Assembly (NCBI GenBank): GCA_945882065.1
Contig: CAMCWI010000005.1
Location: forward strand, 1-43,535
DNA from: Akkermansia muciniphila
GTDB taxonomy: Bacteria > Verrucomicrobiota > Verrucomicrobiia > Limisphaerales > JADLHS01
Direction of reading: 5' to 3'
Length of the DNA: 43,535 bases
In this document: piece after piece, positions 928 to 29,402 of the stretch
Layout of the letters: each line of letters starts with the position of its first letter
Numbering within the stretch: the first letter of the stretch is position 1
Position numbers and translations under genes: made by a program
The notes under the pieces: generated by a model
Told to the model about the DNA's origin: nothing
The model's database searches: none
What the model saw: the letters and a program-made list of their open reading frames with translations, nothing else

Positions 928-952
928 CTAATTGAAACAAACTTACTTCTTT

Positions 953-3220
953 ATGAAAGCACCGCCAATCAAGTCGGTCAGGATTGTTCCGGGACCGGCG
1001 AACGGTTTGACATTTTTCAGTAGCTTGGCGGTCATGCTCTTTGCGGGAAGCTGTCTCGCCGCAGAGATCACATCATCGTGCAAGGCGGCGAAAGACCTGG
1101 CGATCCCCGATTTGAATACCGCCACGCTATCCCCCTCCCAAGCCGAGTGGCGCGCGGGGTTTGAGCAATGGCTCAAACAAAACCTGTTCAAGTCCGGGGC
1201 GGCCCCGTTTTCGTTTGATTATGATGGCAAATCTTCAAGTGAGTTCCTTTCCAGTTGGAAGTTTGCGGCCACCAAGCGGCGATTGAACCCATCTCAAAAC
1301 CAACACGTTCTGACGTACACCGACCCGAAGTCGGGGCTTGAGGTTCGTTGTGAAGCCATCGTTTTTCAGGACTATCCGGCGGTGGAATGGGTCCTGAAAT
1401 TCAAGAATACCTCCGGCCGCGAAACCCCGATCCTTTCCAACATCCAGGCCCTCGACACCAGTCTGACCGATGAGCGCAACGAATTCACGCTGCATCACGC
1501 GCTCGGAGTCGGCGAAGGCATTGTCGCGCGAAAGGAGGATTTTCGTCCGCTTAGCCGCGTCTTGGCGCCGGATTCCAAACTGCGATTCACGGCCACGAAC
1601 GGGCGATCTTCCTGGGGCGACAGTTTGCCATTCTTCAACGTGGAGTTTCCGCAGAATCGCGGCGTGATTGCCAGCATCGGGTGGACGGGGCAATGGCAGG
1701 CGGATTTCAATCGGGACGCGAAGTCTTTGAATCTACGAGCCGGGATGGAGTTGACGCACCTCAAACTTTACCCCGGTGAAGAAATCCGGAGTCCGAAGAT
1801 CATGTTGCTGTTTTGGCAAGGCCATCGCTATTACGGCCAAAACCTGCTGCGGCGGATGATCCTCGCCCACTACCATCCGCAAAAGGAGGGCCAGCCACTC
1901 GCCATGCCTTTCGCCGCCAGCGCGGCGGCTTTGTACCACGAGGCGTTCAAGGCCACCGAACAGAACCAGCTCGATTACGCCAAACAGTTCGCGCCACTCG
2001 GCGTGGAGTATTTGTGGATGGACGTCGGCTGGTTTGAACAAAGCGTGCCGAACTCCCATCTCGCACCGCCCGATCCGAAGCGTTTTCCCAAGGGGCTCAA
2101 GCCGCTCTCCGAGGACCTCCGAAAACTCAACATGGGACTCCTCGCCTGGTTTGCGCCGGAATTCCAAGGCGGTGGCTCGTGGATGGAAAAAGCCTTTCCG
2201 GAGATGTTTCTCCGCTTGAAGAACCATCCCGCAGGAATAGACCTGCTCAATCTTGGGGATCGGAATGCCTTGCAGTTCCTGCTGGATCACACCTCCGCGA
2301 TGATTGCGAAGGAAGGGATTAAGATCTACCGAATGGACGGTCCCATGGGGGCTGACTGCCCCCGCCCGCAAAAACAACCACTGCAATGGTGGCGCGACTC
2401 AGACGCTCCGGACCGGCAGGGCATGACGGAGATTCGCTACATCGAAGGGCTTTACAAGTTCTGGGACGAATTACTCAAGCGGCATCCCGGCCTGATCATT
2501 GACCTGTGCGGCGGCGGCGCGACGCGCATTGATATCGAAGCGATGTCGCGGTGCCTCTATCTCTGGCGCTCGGATTGGAATCATCCGGGCTTCGAGCCGG
2601 ATGGGGAACAATCCAAGAACTACGGCGCGAATCTTTGGCTGGCGTCCGCTGCGACGGGCAGCGGGTATCCCGAACCTTACTCGTTCCGCAGTTCCATGAA
2701 CAACGGGCTGGTCATCGCCTGGAATCCCTATCAACCCACGATCACCCAGGACTGGCCGCTCGCCTATCCCGTGAAGCAGAAGGAAGGTTACGAACTGAAG
2801 AAAGCGCCGCGCACAACGGTGGACAAGGTGGTGCGCGAAGGCTTCATGGTCACCGAACCGTTCCCGTGGGAAGCTGCCCGGCGGTTGGCGGCGGAATACA
2901 AGCGCATCCGGCATTTGTTCTACGGTGACTTTTACCCGCTCACGCCCTACAGCTCGGCGGCGGAAGATTGGATGGCTTACCAGTGTCACCGTGAGGACCT
3001 CCGTCAAGGGGCGGTGATAGCGTTTCGTCGTTCCCAGTGCATCCGCCAGCAGGCGCGCTTGAAGCTGTGGGGACTCGACGCCCGGTCGCGCTACGAAGTC
3101 CGCATCGAAGACACCGGCAAAACTCTCACCACAACCGGCAAGAAATTGGCCGAAGGATTGGACGTAACCATCACCGATCAACCTGGCTCGCAGTTGATCA
3201 CCTACCGGCAATTGCCATGA
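953..3220 (+). CDS. GH36-like glycoside hydrolase (alpha-galactosidase/melibiase-like), secreted
   Basis: Long ORF with signal peptide-like N-terminus; [25 protein letters not shown] and [10 protein letters not shown] motifs shared with five other paralogs in the window. Confidence 0.85.
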
Positions 3221-7696: not shown

Positions 7697-10600
7697 CTAA
7701 GGCGAAAGCCGTCGATATTTGACGGTCGTTGCTTCCGGTGGCGTGGCCACTCTTACTACCACCCCGTCATTCATTAGCTGCCGGCCAGTCGCGGTGTTGG
7801 TGGTGGCTAACTCGAAATTGATCACCTGATAGGTCGCTCCCGATTGGAGACCTTGCAGCCGCAGGCCGATGCTCGGCGTGAGATTGCTCGCGCGGCGGAA
7901 AGCTTGGACGATTCCTTCGTTGAGGTCGGCGCGGTGGAACTGCCACGCGATCCAATCAACGTTGTTGGTTGAATAAGGCGTGAGCGGATAGAAATCGCCG
8001 GAGAACAAATGATTCAGCGAGGCAAAATTGGCGAGCTGGTTTTTGAGCGGAGTCCAGAAGGCCGCGCCCGGTGTGTAATAATCGAAAGCGTAAGTGCCCC
8101 AACTCCCCATGCCGCTGCGGAAATCATTGTTGGCGGTGCTGACGCCACCCTGACCGATCATAGGTAGCCAATGCGATAGTGCGTGCGTCATCGCCTGTGC
8201 GCCCACCACTTCCCAGAGATAATCCGTGCGCAGCAGTGGCACGAGACGACGATACATCTCGAAATCGAGCCGTCGCCCGCCGCTGGCGGAATTGTCCATC
8301 AGCAGGCCGGGATGATTTTGCTGGAGCGTGTCGAAGTACTCGTAGAGGCCCATCACGTAGCGAATTTCATTCATGCCTTTGCGATCCGCTGCCTCGCCGG
8401 TTCGCCAATACCAGAGCGGGTGCATGTTGAAATCGTGCCGGTAAATATCAATTCCCCAGTTGGTGATGATCGCGGAGAAGTTGGTCTTGGCCCAGTTCAA
8501 CGCAGTGGGATTGCCGAGGTTCAACATCCGCCAGCCATCGTTTTGTTGGTAGGCATATTCCGGCGGCATGCCGCTCGGAGTGAGCAACCAATCGGCATGA
8601 TTCGTCCGCAGCCAGGTGTTCGGCATCACGCGCTCCGGCTCGAACCAAAGCAGGAAGCGCAGGCCGTTCGTATGCGCACACTGGCTCACCGGCGCGAGGC
8701 CATTCGGGAAACGAGCCGGATCGGGGATGTTGTTGCCCTGACCCGTGGCGAAACCGCCGATTTCCCACCCCGCATCAATCCAGTACGTGTCCACCGGCAG
8801 TTGTTTCTGGATGATGTTGGTGATCGCCTGAATTTGATTCGTCACGGTGACGTTGTTGAAGCCGAGGGTCGCGCCGGATGCGGCGATCGGGAGGTCAATC
8901 GGCAGACCGTTCGGGCGCGGTGAATAATGCTCGAGCAACAGTCGCCGCAATTGTCGCTGCCCCTCCAGCCAATCGCCTTCGTAACTCAGCGTGAGCACCG
9001 CGGGCGTGCGGATGCGCTCGCCAGCGTCGAGGCGCAGATTGAAGTCCTCCATCCCAATGCGCACCGTGAGGTTCGTGCCCGAATCGCGGACGAAGGAGGC
9101 CTTCCATTGCCCGGTCCAGCCCACGGCCACGATCAGTCCACCGCCGCCGGGCTTGGCGATGTTGAAGAAGGGCATCACGCCGTCGGACGATCTTCCGCCC
9201 ACGGGAGCGAAGTTCATGGTGGAGTTTGGCAGTAGCGTTGCCGTGCGCGGCTGGAAGTCCGTGATGATCGCCGTGCTGCCGTCCGCGTAGTGAAGCGTGA
9301 ACTCGCCACTGTTATCGCGGCCCAGCGCAATCTCGCCGGCCCACACGTTCGAAAGAATTTCACTACTGGGAAGTGGAATCGTGGGCCCGACGACTTGGAA
9401 TCCGTTCACGACCGAGGTGCCGCTTTGCTCGCCGGTCGCCGAAACCACCAGTTGCCCGTTGGCATTGGCCTGACTGGTGAAGTGAACGAAGTCACGTCCT
9501 GCGGCGAACGGTGTGCCGGAACCAGCCGTGGCCGTCTTGGTTGCGCTACCGTTCACGCTGAATACGCCACCGGCCGTGCTGCCATCATTGGAAGCGAGCA
9601 AGAAGAGTTCGTAAGTCGCGCCCGCTGTCAATCCGCGCAGGGTCAACGTCGCCGTGCCGCTCGACATCGAAACGTAGTCCTCAAACAAATTATGAACTCC
9701 GTAATTACCCGAGGTCGAGCGGTCCGCGCCACTGAATCCGCTGAATAGCAGGTTGAGGGACGACGCGGCTCCGTTGCCCGCGACGAATCCACTGCTCGGC
9801 GATGGGCTGTTCGGCGACGTGTAGTTGATCAATGTACCGTTCCACAAATTACCGCCCGCCGGCCCGCCGCCGGAGTACGTCGTCGGCGTCGGGTCGAGCA
9901 GCCCCTTGCCGTTCAAGTCTACGGAGATCGTCGTGTTCGTCACGATGTCGTGTTGAACTTGGTCCACGCGCAGGTAGGCCGGCTGCACATTGGGCGAGAT
10001 CCGAATGCAGTCGAAGCCGCTGCTGACATTGCGAAAGCCATAGAAGTTGTTGGAATTGGCGACGCCGACCATCGCCGTCGCAGAACTCACGACCACGCCG
10101 TTCCGCAGCGCCTCGAACAGAGCCGAAGTTGCGCCGCCATCCACCACGAGCGCGAAGGCCGCGTTTGTTTGCGGCCGCGTGAAATAAATCGGCAGCGCCG
10201 GCTGGGTGAATCCTCCGCCAAACGGTTGGTAATTGAGCACCTGGCCGCCGGAGACATTTCCCGAAAGCGCATTGTCCCAGTAAACCGGCGTCGCGGCGTC
10301 GAAGAACAGGCCACGGTCCGAATATTCCGTGATGATCCGTGTCGCCGGATTGCCCGAAGCCGGCACGTTGTAGGCGTGTTCGGAAAACGTCACCGTCGTG
10401 GGTGGGTTGGTCAGGCCAAAATCATTCTGGAAAAACTCCGCCGCGACGGGCGGGTTCTCAAACCACAGCTTCCATTCGCGTGCCGGATAATCGGCGAACT
10501 CGACGGAATCAACCTGGAACTTGAAACCGTCGCCCGGTTTCGTGTAGGTGCGAACCCGCTGGGTGCGATTTGAATCCAAAACCGTCACGACTTCGCCAAC

Positions 10601-11965
10601 CGGCCAGGAATTGGTGATCGAGCTGGCTGAGGTGGTGCCGAAATTGAAGGCAAATCCCGCCGCTGGTGCCGGCGTAGCGGGCAACGGCGCGGTGCGGAAG
10701 TAGGTGGCGGGATTCGTGAGCGGCACGGTGGCGGCGAACTGGCTGGCATTGGAACTGACCCCGTGCGGCGAAACCGCCCACAGCGCAAGATTGCTGCTTT
10801 GCTGAAGTTGTGCCGCGCCCGCCGCGCCCGGCCACGACACTACCGCGTTACTTCCCTGAAGGGCGATGGCGAGCAGCTTCACCGACGGATCATCCAGAAA
10901 CGCTGCCGGCATTGGGGTGATGACTGGAAGCCCACTGGCCTTGATCAACACATAATCAACCTGACAGTCCGAAATGATTCCCGCGCCGAGAATTCCCGCG
11001 CGAAATCCGGCGTAGCCCGAACGAGCGGGAGAAAAATCCCAGCTCACCTGCCAGGTGGTCGGCTCGGGCGTGTCGCCGTCAGCGAGCCAGACTTTCGCGA
11101 ACGCGTCCGGGCCGCTGGCGTTGGGCGATTGTAGCAGGCGCAGCCAGTACCACACGTTCGTTGTCCATGCCGTGTTCAGCGAAGGACCGAACTCCGTGTA
11201 ATCGCTGAGGAATCGGAAGTGGCGTTGTCCCGGCCCACCGTAAGCCCCGGCGTTGTAGAGACTCATATTCAACCCACCGCGCACCGGCAAACTCCAACTG
11301 TTGGCCGGCACGCCGAGGGCGATCCCCGCGAAGGCATCCGCCTGTAAACTCACATTGGCCATCTTGATTCGCGCGAGCACCTCCTGGGTCGAGCCGTTGT
11401 AGGCCGGGTTGACGTAAATTAGATGATTCGGATCGCCGCTCCCTGCGCATAGATTCAGAAAACCGCCGGCCTGAGCGTAAACATCGGGACCAATAGCCAC
11501 CCAATTGGTATCGCGCGTGGGCGCGTTGAAGTCATCCTGAAATCCGCTTGCGGTCGTCCCCATTTCCACTGGTAAAAACGCGGCGAGACTCACGGTGACG
11601 TTCGCGTTGAACAAAGTCTGGTTGAGCGCCAGATTCTGAACACCGTTTACGACCAACGTCGGAGATGGGCCAAGATCAATTGCGCTCGTCGTCAGCACGA
11701 CATTCGAACTCGTCGCCCCCATCTGCGCGCTAAGGACGCTCGCCCGCTCAACGAAATAGTTACCCGCCACCGTTGCAGACGTCGGGCTAACCGCTTCCGA
11801 GAATGTTACTGTCACCTTGGTGTGATCCACCCAACCGCGCCGCACGGCGGTAACCGTCATGGCCTCAGTCGGGAGAAGCGCACCCAACATCGCGAGGCCC
11901 GCAAGCCACCTTGAAAACCACCTGAAAGTTCCTCCCCGGCAGGCATGGTTGGTGATTTTGTGCAT
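7697..11965 (-). CDS. Multidomain secreted GH36-like glycoside hydrolase (1422 aa) with N-terminal Ig/SbsA-like domain and inserted accessory domains
   Basis: [54 protein letters not shown]-terminal WVDHTKVTVTFSEAVSPTSATVAGNYFVE domain. Confidence 0.88.
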   Translation of the reverse strand: MHKITNHACRGGTFRWFSRWLAGLAMLGALLPTEAMTVTAVRRGWVDHTKVTVTFSEAVSPTSATVAGNYFVERASVLSAQMGATSSNVVLTTSAIDLGPSPTLVVNGVQNLALNQTLFNANVTVSLAAFLPVEMGTTASGFQDDFNAPTRDTNWVAIGPDVYAQAGGFLNLCAGSGDPNHLIYVNPAYNGSTQEVLARIKMANVSLQADAFAGIALGVPANSWSLPVRGGLNMSLYNAGAYGGPGQRHFRFLSDYTEFGPSLNTAWTTNVWYWLRLLQSPNASGPDAFAKVWLADGDTPEPTTWQVSWDFSPARSGYAGFRAGILGAGIISDCQVDYVLIKASGLPVITPMPAAFLDDPSVKLLAIALQGSNAVVSWPGAAGAAQLQQSSNLALWAVSPHGVSSNASQFAATVPLTNPATYFRTAPLPATPAPAAGFAFNFGTTSASSITNSWPVGEVVTVLDSNRTQRVRTYTKPGDGFKFQVDSVEFADYPAREWKLWFENPPVAAEFFQNDFGLTNPPTTVTFSEHAYNVPASGNPATRIITEYSDRGLFFDAATPVYWDNALSGNVSGGQVLNYQPFGGGFTQPALPIYFTRPQTNAAFALVVDGGATSALFEALRNGVVVSSATAMVGVANSNNFYGFRNVSSGFDCIRISPNVQPAYLRVDQVQHDIVTNTTISVDLNGKGLLDPTPTTYSGGGPAGGNLWNGTLINYTSPNSPSPSSGFVAGNGAASSLNLLFSGFSGADRSTSGNYGVHNLFEDYVSMSSGTATLTLRGLTAGATYELFLLASNDGSTAGGVFSVNGSATKTATAGSGTPFAAGRDFVHFTSQANANGQLVVSATGEQSGTSVVNGFQVVGPTIPLPSSEILSNVWAGEIALGRDNSGEFTLHYADGSTAIITDFQPRTATLLPNSTMNFAPVGGRSSDGVMPFFNIAKPGGGGLIVAVGWTGQWKASFVRDSGTNLTVRIGMEDFNLRLDAGERIRTPAVLTLSYEGDWLEGQRQLRRLLLEHYSPRPNGLPIDLPIAASGATLGFNNVTVTNQIQAITNIIQKQLPVDTYWIDAGWEIGGFATGQGNNIPDPARFPNGLAPVSQCAHTNGLRFLLWFEPERVMPNTWLRTNHADWLLTPSGMPPEYAYQQNDGWRMLNLGNPTALNWAKTNFSAIITNWGIDIYRHDFNMHPLWYWRTGEAADRKGMNEIRYVMGLYEYFDTLQQNHPGLLMDNSASGGRRLDFEMYRRLVPLLRTDYLWEVVGAQAMTHALSHWLPMIGQGGVSTANNDFRSGMGSWGTYAFDYYTPGAAFWTPLKNQLANFASLNHLFSGDFYPLTPYSTNNVDWIAWQFHRADLNEGIVQAFRRASNLTPSIGLRLQGLQSGATYQVINFELATTNTATGRQLMNDGVVVRVATPPEATTVKYRRLSP

Positions 11966-21922: not shown

Positions 21923-21963
21923 AGAGACTGTCATAAGGTGATGATGCATTGTTCTTGGTGAAA

Positions 21964-24303
21964 TCAGTTTCGCGCCTTCTGGTAGGTGATCCAGACCACG
22001 CCCGGTTCTGCTGCCAAATCCAGGGAGACACCTTTGCCCATGAATTCCTTTCCTTTCAAACGGGGTCCTACCGACAAGGGAATGCTCCTTACGTCGGAAA
22101 GAATTGGCAGCTTGCCTACAGACGTGAGATAGGTTGTGAACAGGTTGGTGTCGCAGGTGCCAAAGAATGTGCCCTCGTAAAACGCTTTGGTGGCCGGCGC
22201 CAGTCTTCCCGCATACGCTTTGCATTCATAATCAGCTGAGGACTGCAATGCCCGCGGAGATAGCGCTATATTTTGCGCATCGCCCGCCTTCCTGCGAACG
22301 ACCTGGATGACACCGCGGTTACGATCGGGGAGATCAAACTGACAAGCTGCCCAGGCGCGGTCCATCGAAAGGTCCGTCAGTTCGTAGAACTCACAAGCGC
22401 CGCCCTTTTCGTTCAACAGCAAGCGTCGGTAGGCTGGTTCCAGTCCCGCCCAGGCTTGCATCACCTCAACAAATTCGGCCGGGGGAGTGCCGTTTTTCTG
22501 GAGGAAATTGTCGCGCCAGACATTATTCGTGTCCTGGGAATTGAAAAGCAACGGGCCTCCCTCATTGCGATAGACGACATTGTTCTCGTAGCGGCATCCG
22601 GTGTTATTGCCGTCCAAATAGAGGCCATGACAGGCTTTGGTGTCCAGAATGCCACTTGCGACGGTTCCTCGACCAAAAGCATTCCATTGAGTGTCGTGTA
22701 CCAAGTTGCCACGGATTCGGGTACCATTTCCATAATTGGCGAAAGTAACGTAGAGACCGGCACCATCGACGGTGGTTTTCATGGCGTTATAGACGTGGTT
22801 AAAGTCGATGGAATTATTTTTTGCGAATTTCACCTGGGGATACTGGCTGCCGGCAACGATGATCCCGCAATAGGCGACATCATGCACCAGGTTGTGCGCT
22901 ATAGTCGAATCCTGCGCCAGATAGAGCGAAATTCCCGTAGCCCCGAAGTAGTCCGTCCCGACATGATGGATGTAGTTATTGGCGACGACATAGCTCTTGT
23001 AATCGTCCGCTTTTGGTGGTGGGGAGGCGTAGAGGTATCCCCCGGCGACATTACAGCCGCCGACGCCAATTCCGCCGCCGCCCAGGTCACAGATCTCGTT
23101 TCCTTCAATTCGGTTAAACCCTGTTCCGTCGCGGACGCAGATCGCCATTGCACCGACGTGGGAGATCTCACCCTTCAGGAAATGGCAATTGCGGGCATTT
23201 TCGAATTCCACGGCTGCCTCGATGAAGCGGTGCCCGACTTTGTCTTTGGTGCCAGTAGCGACGTTGCAGCTGAAGAGACCGCTATAGCCCCAGGCTGGCA
23301 GGGGCCAGTCCACGTGCATAACGCGGATACCTTCGAACGTGAGGTTGAGCACAGGCCGTTCTGGCGTGCCGACAACAGCCAGCAAAGTGTTTCTTACCAC
23401 AGTCGCCACCACCTCGACCCGGGCAAGGTCCTCACCAGCCCTGGGCCAGTAGGAAAGAACTCCTGTATGGGTATCCAAATACCACTCGCTGGGCTGGTCC
23501 AACATTTCGAGGGCATTTTCGACATAACAGGGTTTGCCTGTGGTTGGGGCGCTGAGATGCCAGTCATTGCCAAAAACCTTGGGGTTCCACCGGTGCGGCG
23601 GTGCAACGACCAGTTTCTGGGCGTCAACGTCCACACTCTGAAGCCTCTTTCGACCTCCCTCGTTATTGTAATTGCAGATTAATTCTACCTGATCTGGGTT
23701 GCTCCAGGTGACAATGGGGCCATCCACAGTGACGGTAAACGGCTCTTCCTCTGATTCGGTGAGAACAGCGGTGCGGATAAGCCACCAGGGTTTTTGCGCA
23801 TCGATGTTCGGGGTGCGAGCGCGAACGGCGCGCCGGCTATCTATGAATAACTGGCGGAATTGCCAGTCGCCGGATTTTACCTCGGGAATCTCAACCGTCC
23901 AAATGTCGCCAATCCCCTTTTTCCATCCGGTGATTAGCCGACCACCACTGAGGTCGACCCGTTCACCGGGAGCAGCGGCGTAGGTGATGGAATGCTGGGT
24001 CGTGCCGGAGTCCTCGGGCCCGAAAGTCAGCGTCTCCAGCTGACGATAAGTCCCCCCGCTAATCTGGACCCAAATGTTTTCGCTAAGTCCGGCGGCGATT
24101 TTCTGGCGTACTGCGTCGCGGGCACCTGCGAGGGTGGCGAAAGGGGACTTAGCGGTTCCAGGGTTTGTGTCCTTTCCATCGGTGGCTACGCAAAAGTCGG
24201 GCTTTGAGGGAGCAGCCAGGCAAGCAATCGCAGTGACAGAGAGAAAGAACAGACCAAACGAGAGGCCACTTCGCGAAAGGATTTGGAGACTGAACTTATT
24301 CAT
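21964..24303 (-). CDS. Right-handed parallel beta-helix (GH141-like) secreted protein with GH36-like C-terminal domain
   Basis: FCVATDGKDTNPGTAKSPFATLAGARDAVRQ, LTFGPEDSGTTQHSITYAAAPGERVDLSGGRLITGWK; C-terminal DRAWAACQFDLPDRNRGVIQVVRRKAGDAQNIAL resembles GH36 tail in neighbours. Confidence 0.85.
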   Translation of the reverse strand: MNKFSLQILSRSGLSFGLFFLSVTAIACLAAPSKPDFCVATDGKDTNPGTAKSPFATLAGARDAVRQKIAAGLSENIWVQISGGTYRQLETLTFGPEDSGTTQHSITYAAAPGERVDLSGGRLITGWKKGIGDIWTVEIPEVKSGDWQFRQLFIDSRRAVRARTPNIDAQKPWWLIRTAVLTESEEEPFTVTVDGPIVTWSNPDQVELICNYNNEGGRKRLQSVDVDAQKLVVAPPHRWNPKVFGNDWHLSAPTTGKPCYVENALEMLDQPSEWYLDTHTGVLSYWPRAGEDLARVEVVATVVRNTLLAVVGTPERPVLNLTFEGIRVMHVDWPLPAWGYSGLFSCNVATGTKDKVGHRFIEAAVEFENARNCHFLKGEISHVGAMAICVRDGTGFNRIEGNEICDLGGGGIGVGGCNVAGGYLYASPPPKADDYKSYVVANNYIHHVGTDYFGATGISLYLAQDSTIAHNLVHDVAYCGIIVAGSQYPQVKFAKNNSIDFNHVYNAMKTTVDGAGLYVTFANYGNGTRIRGNLVHDTQWNAFGRGTVASGILDTKACHGLYLDGNNTGCRYENNVVYRNEGGPLLFNSQDTNNVWRDNFLQKNGTPPAEFVEVMQAWAGLEPAYRRLLLNEKGGACEFYELTDLSMDRAWAACQFDLPDRNRGVIQVVRRKAGDAQNIALSPRALQSSADYECKAYAGRLAPATKAFYEGTFFGTCDTNLFTTYLTSVGKLPILSDVRSIPLSVGPRLKGKEFMGKGVSLDLAAEPGVVWITYQKARN

Positions 24304-27368: not shown

Positions 27369-29402
27369 TCATTTCGTGTAGGTCAGCACGGCGGCACCCG
27401 GCGGTGTGGCGATGACGACGGGCAGGCCGGGGTTCATCAGTTCGCGGCCGGGCAGCGTCTGCGAGCGGCCGGTTTCGAGGTCGGTCACGGTGTAGCGGGC
27501 CTTGGGGTCCAGGCCGCGGAGCTTCACGGTGAGCGTTTCATCGAGAACCTTGGGCCGGCGGAAGGCCTGCACGACGCCGTCGCCCTGTTCCGGGCGGTGG
27601 AACTGCCAGGCGATCCAGGTGTCCGGCGCGAGGCTGTAGGGAGTGAGCGGGTAGTAGTCGCCCTCGAGCATCAGCGGCGCGATCCGGCGGCATTCGGCGT
27701 AGGCTTTCTGCTGGGCCGCGGTGTTCTCCGGGGTCAGCGCGCCCATGCCGAACGACGGCAGATAGAAGCTGCGATACGCGTAGGGTTCATAGAGATAGCA
27801 GCCCGTGCCTTGAAAGGGCAGCCAGGAAGAAAGGCCGTAGGTGTGGCCCTGGTTTCCCTCGACGACGCCCTTCATGTCGGTGAATTGAAAGTCGCTTCGC
27901 AGCAGCGGCACGGCGCGGCGCATGGATTCCAGATCGTTGCGCCGCCCGCCCGAAGCACAGGAATCTATGCGCAATCCGGGATGACGTCGGCGTAGTTCAT
28001 CCCACAAGGCCAGGTGGCCTTGCACGTAGAAGTTCTCGGTGATGCCCTGGCGATTCTCCGCGTCGTTCTTGCGCCACGTCGGCAGCGGTCCTTCGCCGTT
28101 CATGTCTTCGCGATACCAATCGAGTCCCTGCGTCTTGATCATCCTATCGAGGTGATTGACCAGCCAGTTGAAGGCCGCCGGGTTGCCGAGGTTGAGAATC
28201 GAGCCGTGTGACGATCCGGGCAACAACCACGCGGGATGATTTTTCGCCAGCCAGGAATTCGTGTCGCCCACGCGCTCCGGCTCAAACCACAGGAGGAATT
28301 GCATTCCGTTTGAGCGCACCCAATTGCTGAACGGCTTGAAGCCTTGCGGAAACCTGATCTCGTCAACTTCCCAGGTTCCTGAGTTCAGCCAGATCATGCC
28401 GGGTAACGGGTAGGGCAGCGGGTCGGGGCCGACCTTGAACCAGACGCTCTCGCGTGTGCCGCCGGCGTCGCGCCAGCAGATGTCCGGCTTGATGCCCGCA
28501 TCGATAAACGCCTTCACCCTGGTGATGTTGGCGACCGAACCGTCCACTTGAATTTGTCTGACTGCCGGCTGCGTCTGGCCGTGCGTGCGCGCTAGGTTGT
28601 GAGCGATGAACCAGCGCCGCCACAAATTCTGGGCGCGGACGACGTCGTCGCCCTTCCAAAACAAGAGCGCGATGAGCGGCGTGCGGATTTCCTCGCCGGG
28701 CTTGAGCACCAGGCGGGTGCGCTGCTGGCCAGCCGTGACGCGCAAACGTCGCCCGGCATCGCGCTCGAAGGAGCTGGCCCACTGCCCCGGCCAGCCCACT
28801 GCGATGATCACGCCTCCTCCGGGCATCTGGAGGTTGTAATAGGGCCAGCCGTCTGGTCCGTCGCACGATTTGCCGGAATAGTCGGGCGGACTGAACTTCT
28901 TCGTCAGGCCGGGAACGAGTGTGTGGTGATACGGTTCGTAGCTGTCAGCAGTGCAGAAGTCGCCCTTGATGCCATGGAGCACGAACTCACTTTTCGCACT
29001 GCGCTCGAAGGACGTGTCCAGTCCCTGGATGTTTTCCAGAATCGGCGTGTCGTTCGCACCGATGTTCTTGAAATAAACCGTCCACTCCACGACTGGATAA
29101 TCCGCATACTCAGTCCCAACGAGTCGCACCTCGAAACCCGACTTCTCGTCCGTCCATCTGCGCGTGCGCTCGCGCCGCTGGGTATCCAGTTCGCGCGTCG
29201 AATCGGTGCGCTTCCAATCACGCAGCAGCTCGCCCGCTGGCTTTCCACCGAGCACAAAACTGAACGGCGGCTTCGCTTGCTCCATGAAAACGTTGCTTTG
29301 TGCCCACTGCGTCGCCGCAGAGTGTTCCTCCGGGGTTGGAGTCGCGGCGTGAAGCGTGAGCGCGGTGAGCGGTGCGAATAGAAAAGTGAGTCTGCGTATC
29401 AT
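27369..29402 (-). CDS. GH36-like alpha-galactosidase-type secreted protein
   Basis: Signal peptide; ICWRDAGGTRES, LLWFEPERVG, DWYREDMNGEGP, IDSCASGGRRNDLE, GDYYPLTPYS. Confidence 0.9.
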   Translation of the reverse strand: MIRRLTFLFAPLTALTLHAATPTPEEHSAATQWAQSNVFMEQAKPPFSFVLGGKPAGELLRDWKRTDSTRELDTQRRERTRRWTDEKSGFEVRLVGTEYADYPVVEWTVYFKNIGANDTPILENIQGLDTSFERSAKSEFVLHGIKGDFCTADSYEPYHHTLVPGLTKKFSPPDYSGKSCDGPDGWPYYNLQMPGGGVIIAVGWPGQWASSFERDAGRRLRVTAGQQRTRLVLKPGEEIRTPLIALLFWKGDDVVRAQNLWRRWFIAHNLARTHGQTQPAVRQIQVDGSVANITRVKAFIDAGIKPDICWRDAGGTRESVWFKVGPDPLPYPLPGMIWLNSGTWEVDEIRFPQGFKPFSNWVRSNGMQFLLWFEPERVGDTNSWLAKNHPAWLLPGSSHGSILNLGNPAAFNWLVNHLDRMIKTQGLDWYREDMNGEGPLPTWRKNDAENRQGITENFYVQGHLALWDELRRRHPGLRIDSCASGGRRNDLESMRRAVPLLRSDFQFTDMKGVVEGNQGHTYGLSSWLPFQGTGCYLYEPYAYRSFYLPSFGMGALTPENTAAQQKAYAECRRIAPLMLEGDYYPLTPYSLAPDTWIAWQFHRPEQGDGVVQAFRRPKVLDETLTVKLRGLDPKARYTVTDLETGRSQTLPGRELMNPGLPVVIATPPGAAVLTYTK

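Follow-up and report, generated by a model that had tools for sequence, protein, structure and literature searches.

The 43.5-kb stretch of DNA analyzed here (hereinafter, the window) encodes, at 21964..24303 on the minus strand, a 779-aa GH141-like protein with a GH36C-like tail (P0001, identified from the ORF and its Pfam matches). As computation shows, the beta-helix of this protein is followed, right at its native end, by a tail homologous to the GH36 C-terminal beta-sandwich. For this homology, the sequence profiles are decisive, and the structural comparison agrees with them although it is not decisive. The fusion looks like one old event, the product of which has been kept in a small GH141 subfamily.

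Domain architecture of the fusion protein

The reading frame of P0001 is the one given in an earlier note on this DNA. An AAGGAG sequence that resembles a ribosome site is located just 5' of the ATG, and the hydrophobic, signal-peptide-like N-terminal stretch of the predicted protein suggests secretion. The catalytic beta-helix together with the GH141 insertion domain occupies approximately residues 31-626 (22426..24213, minus strand), as delineated by Pfam and by homology to BT_1002. Residues 132-288 match the GH141_M family (PF21231; 46.5 bits against a cut-off of 27), and the right-handed Beta_helix family (PF13229) is matched with 39.3 bits (cut-off 25.9); no match to the Melibiase TIM barrel (PF02065) was detected in P0001 with Pfam. 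In sequence searches, residues 36-626 are homologous to BT_1002 (PDB 5mqp; E 4.9e-36), and PDB 9rx2, a “Parallel beta-helix repeat protein”, is matched with E 5.3e-45. The activities reported for GH141 include alpha-L-fucosidase on RG-II, xylanase and, recently, endo-fucanase (PMC10154630, PMC5593877, PMC12786026), and D523 and D564 of BT1002 are reported to be essential by mutagenesis (PMC10154630). The corresponding catalytic Asp pair is conserved in P0001, as shown by computation, and consists of the putative catalytic residues D513 (nt 22765-22767, minus strand) and D564 (nt 22612-22614, minus strand). D513 aligns straight to the BT_1002 Asp and D564 is one column off in the HMMER alignment; at both positions, Asp is found in 34/34 rows having a residue (35 GH141-like rows, with 1/35 gapped at each position).

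The segment 21964-22410 comprises residues 632-779 and the stop codon, with the tail domain starting at C637 (nt 22395) and covering residues 637-779 (21967..22395, minus strand); the assignment of this domain is based on BLAST, shuffling and hhalign, and on homologs that pass the PF16874 threshold. The fusion boundary is apparent from the comparison with the non-fusion relatives L010, L013 and L029, which stop 1-7 residues past the equivalent of the AGLEPAYRRLL motif, whereas the fusions run on into the tail. The tail sequence quoted in the earlier note matches the translation, except that LNEKGGA, located between AGLEPAYRRLL and CEFYEL, was skipped.

Homology of the tail to the GH36 C-terminal domain

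The proposal that a beta-helix protein carries a GH36-like C-terminal domain was borne out by three lines of evidence, namely a profile-profile comparison, alignment scores above those of shuffled sequences and Pfam matches in two homologs. For the hhalign comparison, five fusion tails, excluding the one most similar to GH36, were compiled into a profile, which matched a profile of ten GH36 tails across the full domain with a probability of 99.8% and E 4.2e-28. With BLAST, against a database consisting of the five minus-strand GH36 ORFs of the window, the P0001 tail matched all five at E 2e-9 to 2e-5 and 25-38% identity; the bit scores range from 32.3 to 45.1, and 2000 shuffled versions of the tail reached 30.0 at most. 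When the whole genome that contains the window (the source genome) was searched in six frames, these five GH36 tails were the only other matches at E<=1.

The Pfam family Glyco_hydro_36C (PF16874) has no match in the P0001 tail alone, even at E 10, and no GH36C match was found in the full-length protein with either Pfam or NCBIfam. The gathering threshold of this family (27 bits) is passed by the fusion homologs L070 (34.5) and L069 (29.8), whereas L038 (21.3) and L037 (13.2) score below it and the fusion in the genome G662 shows no GH36C match at E<=1e-5 with Pfam. A sequence search of the PDB with a fusion profile (A1) yielded no credible chain for the tail, with a best E of 0.078.

The divergence of the P0001 tail, which escapes the Pfam model, would be compatible with a truncated GH36 gene having been fused by deletion, in which case the tail would be a decayed, functionless remnant. 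This reading appears very unlikely: the tail is retained in six genes, there are invariant positions across five divergent tails, and the P0001 and L037 tails are 46% identical and differ in length only at the extreme end.

Predicted fold and a clade-specific insert

The tail modeled alone, from two sequences and with no GH36 rows, is a beta-sandwich (pLDDT 59, pTM 0.56). The C-termini of the GH36 alpha-galactosidases 8k7v and 8k1a rank first and second in the comparison of this model with known structures, in line with the fold expected in the earlier note, but the Z score is only 6.8 and, for a model with pLDDT 59, ties with those of GH44/GH39/GH51-type sandwiches. By sequence, 8k1a is also related to P0005, one of the GH36 proteins encoded in the window (E 1e-12). 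Foldseek with the tail model retrieved nothing at E <0.001 and no GH36 among the best 50 matches listed; at this model quality (pLDDT 59), the top row was heparanase, followed by GH97 and GH51 sandwiches. The full-length P0001 model, also from two sequences, has a pLDDT of 33.6 and is unusable, and no inference was drawn from it.

The tail is further distinguished by an insert between the strand ending in CKAY and the G-K-E-F-M motif (G-x-E-L/F-M). As judged from the alignments, it comprises about 57 residues in P0001 (approximately residues 694-750; 22054..22224, minus strand), a segment that the otherwise matching quotation in the earlier note elides; in GH36 tails, this region is only ~10-15 residues long. 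Extra residues are present here in all fusion tails but that of L070, and the insert is strongly conserved between P0001 and L037.

Distribution of the fusion

The same fusion, for which a search had been suggested in the earlier note, is also encoded by five genes in four genomes besides the source genome. The total is thus six genes in five genomes, and the architecture is rare. The A1 profile consists of the beta-helix end and the tail; in the sample from the order of the source genome, fusions scored 181-326 bits, as opposed to at most 61 bits for the rest. In this order, fusions are present in 3 of the 320 genomes, namely the source genome, G172 (two genes) and G140, in which the gene is truncated by the contig end. 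The phylum sample contained fusions in 2 of 387 genomes (the source genome and G662, at 114 bits), and the order of G705 in 1 of 68 (G705 itself; further rows scored 50-61 bits). The genome samples overlap, at least in the source genome. The sole relative from a scan of genome contigs, L037, is 63% identical to P0001 over residues 14-778. The MAG containing L037 is labeled Candidatus Hydrogenedentes, yet this protein is nearer to P0001 than are the fusions in the window's own order; this may reflect either a transfer between lineages or mis-binning of the contig.

The collection of ORFs bearing the tail domain was retrieved with queries derived from the fusions and should not be taken as a census; it contains 98 ORFs, including one duplicate. 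Among the 97 distinct ORFs, there are 6 fusions, 88 GH36-like proteins (73 recognized by the GH36 motif and 15 by Melibiase) and 3 fragments that show no catalytic part, and no third clear domain context for the tail. The GH36 motif is absent in 24 of the 98 ORFs, that is, in the 6 fusions and 18 others; according to Pfam, GH36C is present in all 18 of the latter and Melibiase in 15. In a search of the literature on GH141 and GH36C that was far from exhaustive, no description of the fusion was found; the novelty resides in the domain architecture of known families.

History of the fusion

In the tree of 33 GH141-like beta-helices, built without duplicates and without L024, L038 and L146 (truncated or weak rows), a branch with 100/100 support separates the five sufficiently complete fusions from all other sequences. 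In the tree of 97 tails, which is based on 101 columns only, with the bootstrap not settled and the L136:1-1653 fragment omitted, five of the six fusion tails group together (100/98) and L070 is placed beside this group among long branches. Constraining all six fusion tails together is compatible with the data (p 0.389), and the AU test rejects a constraint that unites the P0001 tail with the five GH36 tails of the window (p 0.00077). A single clade of fusion beta-helices combined with tails that are apart from the local GH36 tails suggests one old fusion and not a module that is mobile within the locus. The latter had been the interpretation offered in the earlier note, and it is not supported. 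A recent local exchange, whereby the tail would have been copied from a neighboring GH36 gene, might seem attractive considering the six GH36-like genes in the window and the restriction of the tail's other matches in the source genome to the tails of five of them. Nevertheless, the presence of the fusion in four other genomes, the rejection of the constrained grouping and the low identity to the local tails (see above) all argue against such an exchange, which we consider extremely improbable.

In the genome G092, the gene at L008 349-4098 encodes a 1250-aa GH141-like protein that falls near the fusion group in the beta-helix tree (84/69); its C-terminal part has a weak, sub-cut-off match to GHL10.

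Gene neighborhood

The fusion gene belongs to a minus-strand cluster with the order sulfatase, GH36, GH2, fusion, GH36, GH36, enolase-family dehydratase, 2-hydroxyacid dehydrogenase, GH36 and GH36. The gaps are ~4-41 bases from the sulfatase to the GH36 gene after the fusion, and reach several hundred bases at some points further down. The GH2 gene (P0004; 24308..27343, minus strand; Pfam) is located upstream and ends 4 bases before the fusion gene, and the GH36 gene P0005 lies at 27369..29402 (minus strand; Pfam). The next gene downstream, P0002 (19844..21934, minus strand), contains Melibiase and Glyco_hydro_36C according to Pfam. Although its listed ORF extends back to 22225, translation probably begins at 21934 or 21922, ahead of a lipoprotein-like signal, so that the overlap with the fusion gene would be non-coding. 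Altogether, six GH36-like (Melibiase) genes are present in the window, five on the minus strand between 7697 and 29402 and one on the plus strand (932-3220). Among these, the gene at 7697-11965 (minus strand) encodes a 1422-aa GH36-like protein in which the Melibiase match starts only at residue 1045, with the ~1000 residues before it showing no Pfam match at E<=1.

A homolog of the GH2 neighbor at E<=1e-30 is present in 4 of the 5 fusion genomes (including the source genome), with none in G140; this co-occurrence says little because GH2s are numerous in such genomes. A GH127-type gene adjoins the fusion in two genomes (L037 6703-8460; L136 3264-6050 in G662), and in G662, GH29-, GH43- and GH2-type genes are also found near the fusion. 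Three genes upstream of the G662 fusion, L136 1-1653 encodes a GH36C fragment followed by PKD and laminin-G-like domains. From the gene context, the predicted substrate is a complex glycan of plant or algal origin that contains L-sugars. Contexts that combine GH2, GH36 and sulfatase genes are reported among Verrucomicrobiota loci (PMC8857213).

Possible role of the tail

The scenario that we favor, and that appears fairly probable as a whole, is that P0001 is a secreted GH141 enzyme whose ancestor would have gained the GH36-type sandwich once, long ago, next to the native beta-helix end, and that it works with the gene cluster on a polysaccharide, the sandwich being a non-catalytic cap or stabilizer. 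Judging from the family assignment, the predicted activity is that of an alpha-L-fucosidase or a related enzyme. In GH36, the C-terminal domain packs beside the barrel. By analogy, the role of the tail is most likely that of a non-catalytic cap or stabilizer of the secreted enzyme, and it may pack against the terminal coils of the helix, as a cap or as a stabilizing platform. The insert, which is specific for the fusion clade, probably provides additional contact with the helix or the substrate. The expected target would be a complex polysaccharide of plant or algal type, on which P0001 would act alongside the GH36 and GH2 enzymes and the sulfatase encoded in the minus-strand cluster.

The main alternative, which we regard as tentative, is that the tail serves to bind carbohydrate or to recognize the substrate and thereby holds the polymer, the insert contributing to the binding face. 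The beta-sandwich shape of the predicted tail and the strong conservation of the insert in P0001 and L037 are compatible with this role, and accessory modules of GH141 enzymes can bind, as indicated by the report on Xyn141E, which carries CBM6 (PMC5593877). Conversely, no CBM family was matched by the tail or the whole protein in Pfam. Furthermore, the homologous GH36 domain is attached to a barrel and, to our knowledge, does not act as a binding module. It is rather improbable that the tail and the insert reach over the beta-helix groove and contribute to the substrate site, which would give the fused GH141 subfamily its own specificity.

The retention of a GH36 C-terminal sandwich, usually found on TIM-barrel glycosidases, on an unrelated beta-helix suggests that this domain can act as an independent unit, and the tail could serve to recognize members of a small GH141 subfamily. 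The effect on the understanding of these enzymes is modest, accessory sandwiches being common on glycoside hydrolases.

Comparison with known systems

In its catalytic part, P0001 resembles BT_1002 (5mqp), with which it shares the beta-helix, the GH141 insertion domain and the Asp pair, but the BT_1002 chain ends with the beta-helix (the match extends to residue 620 of 624) and lacks a GH36C-type tail. The same beta-helix catalytic part with the GH141 insertion domain is found in PDB 9rx2. With the GH36C proteins (PF16874; the alpha-galactosidase structures 8k1a, 8k7u and 8k7v), homology extends across the full domain of the P0001 tail; the distinctions are that P0001 has no GH36 barrel, contains an insert of up to ~57 residues and scores below the Pfam cut-off. 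A parallel in overall layout is Xyn141E of Clostridium thermocellum, described as GH141-CBM6-dockerin: its GH141 catalytic part is likewise followed by accessory modules, although these are CBM6 and a dockerin rather than GH36C (PMC5593877).
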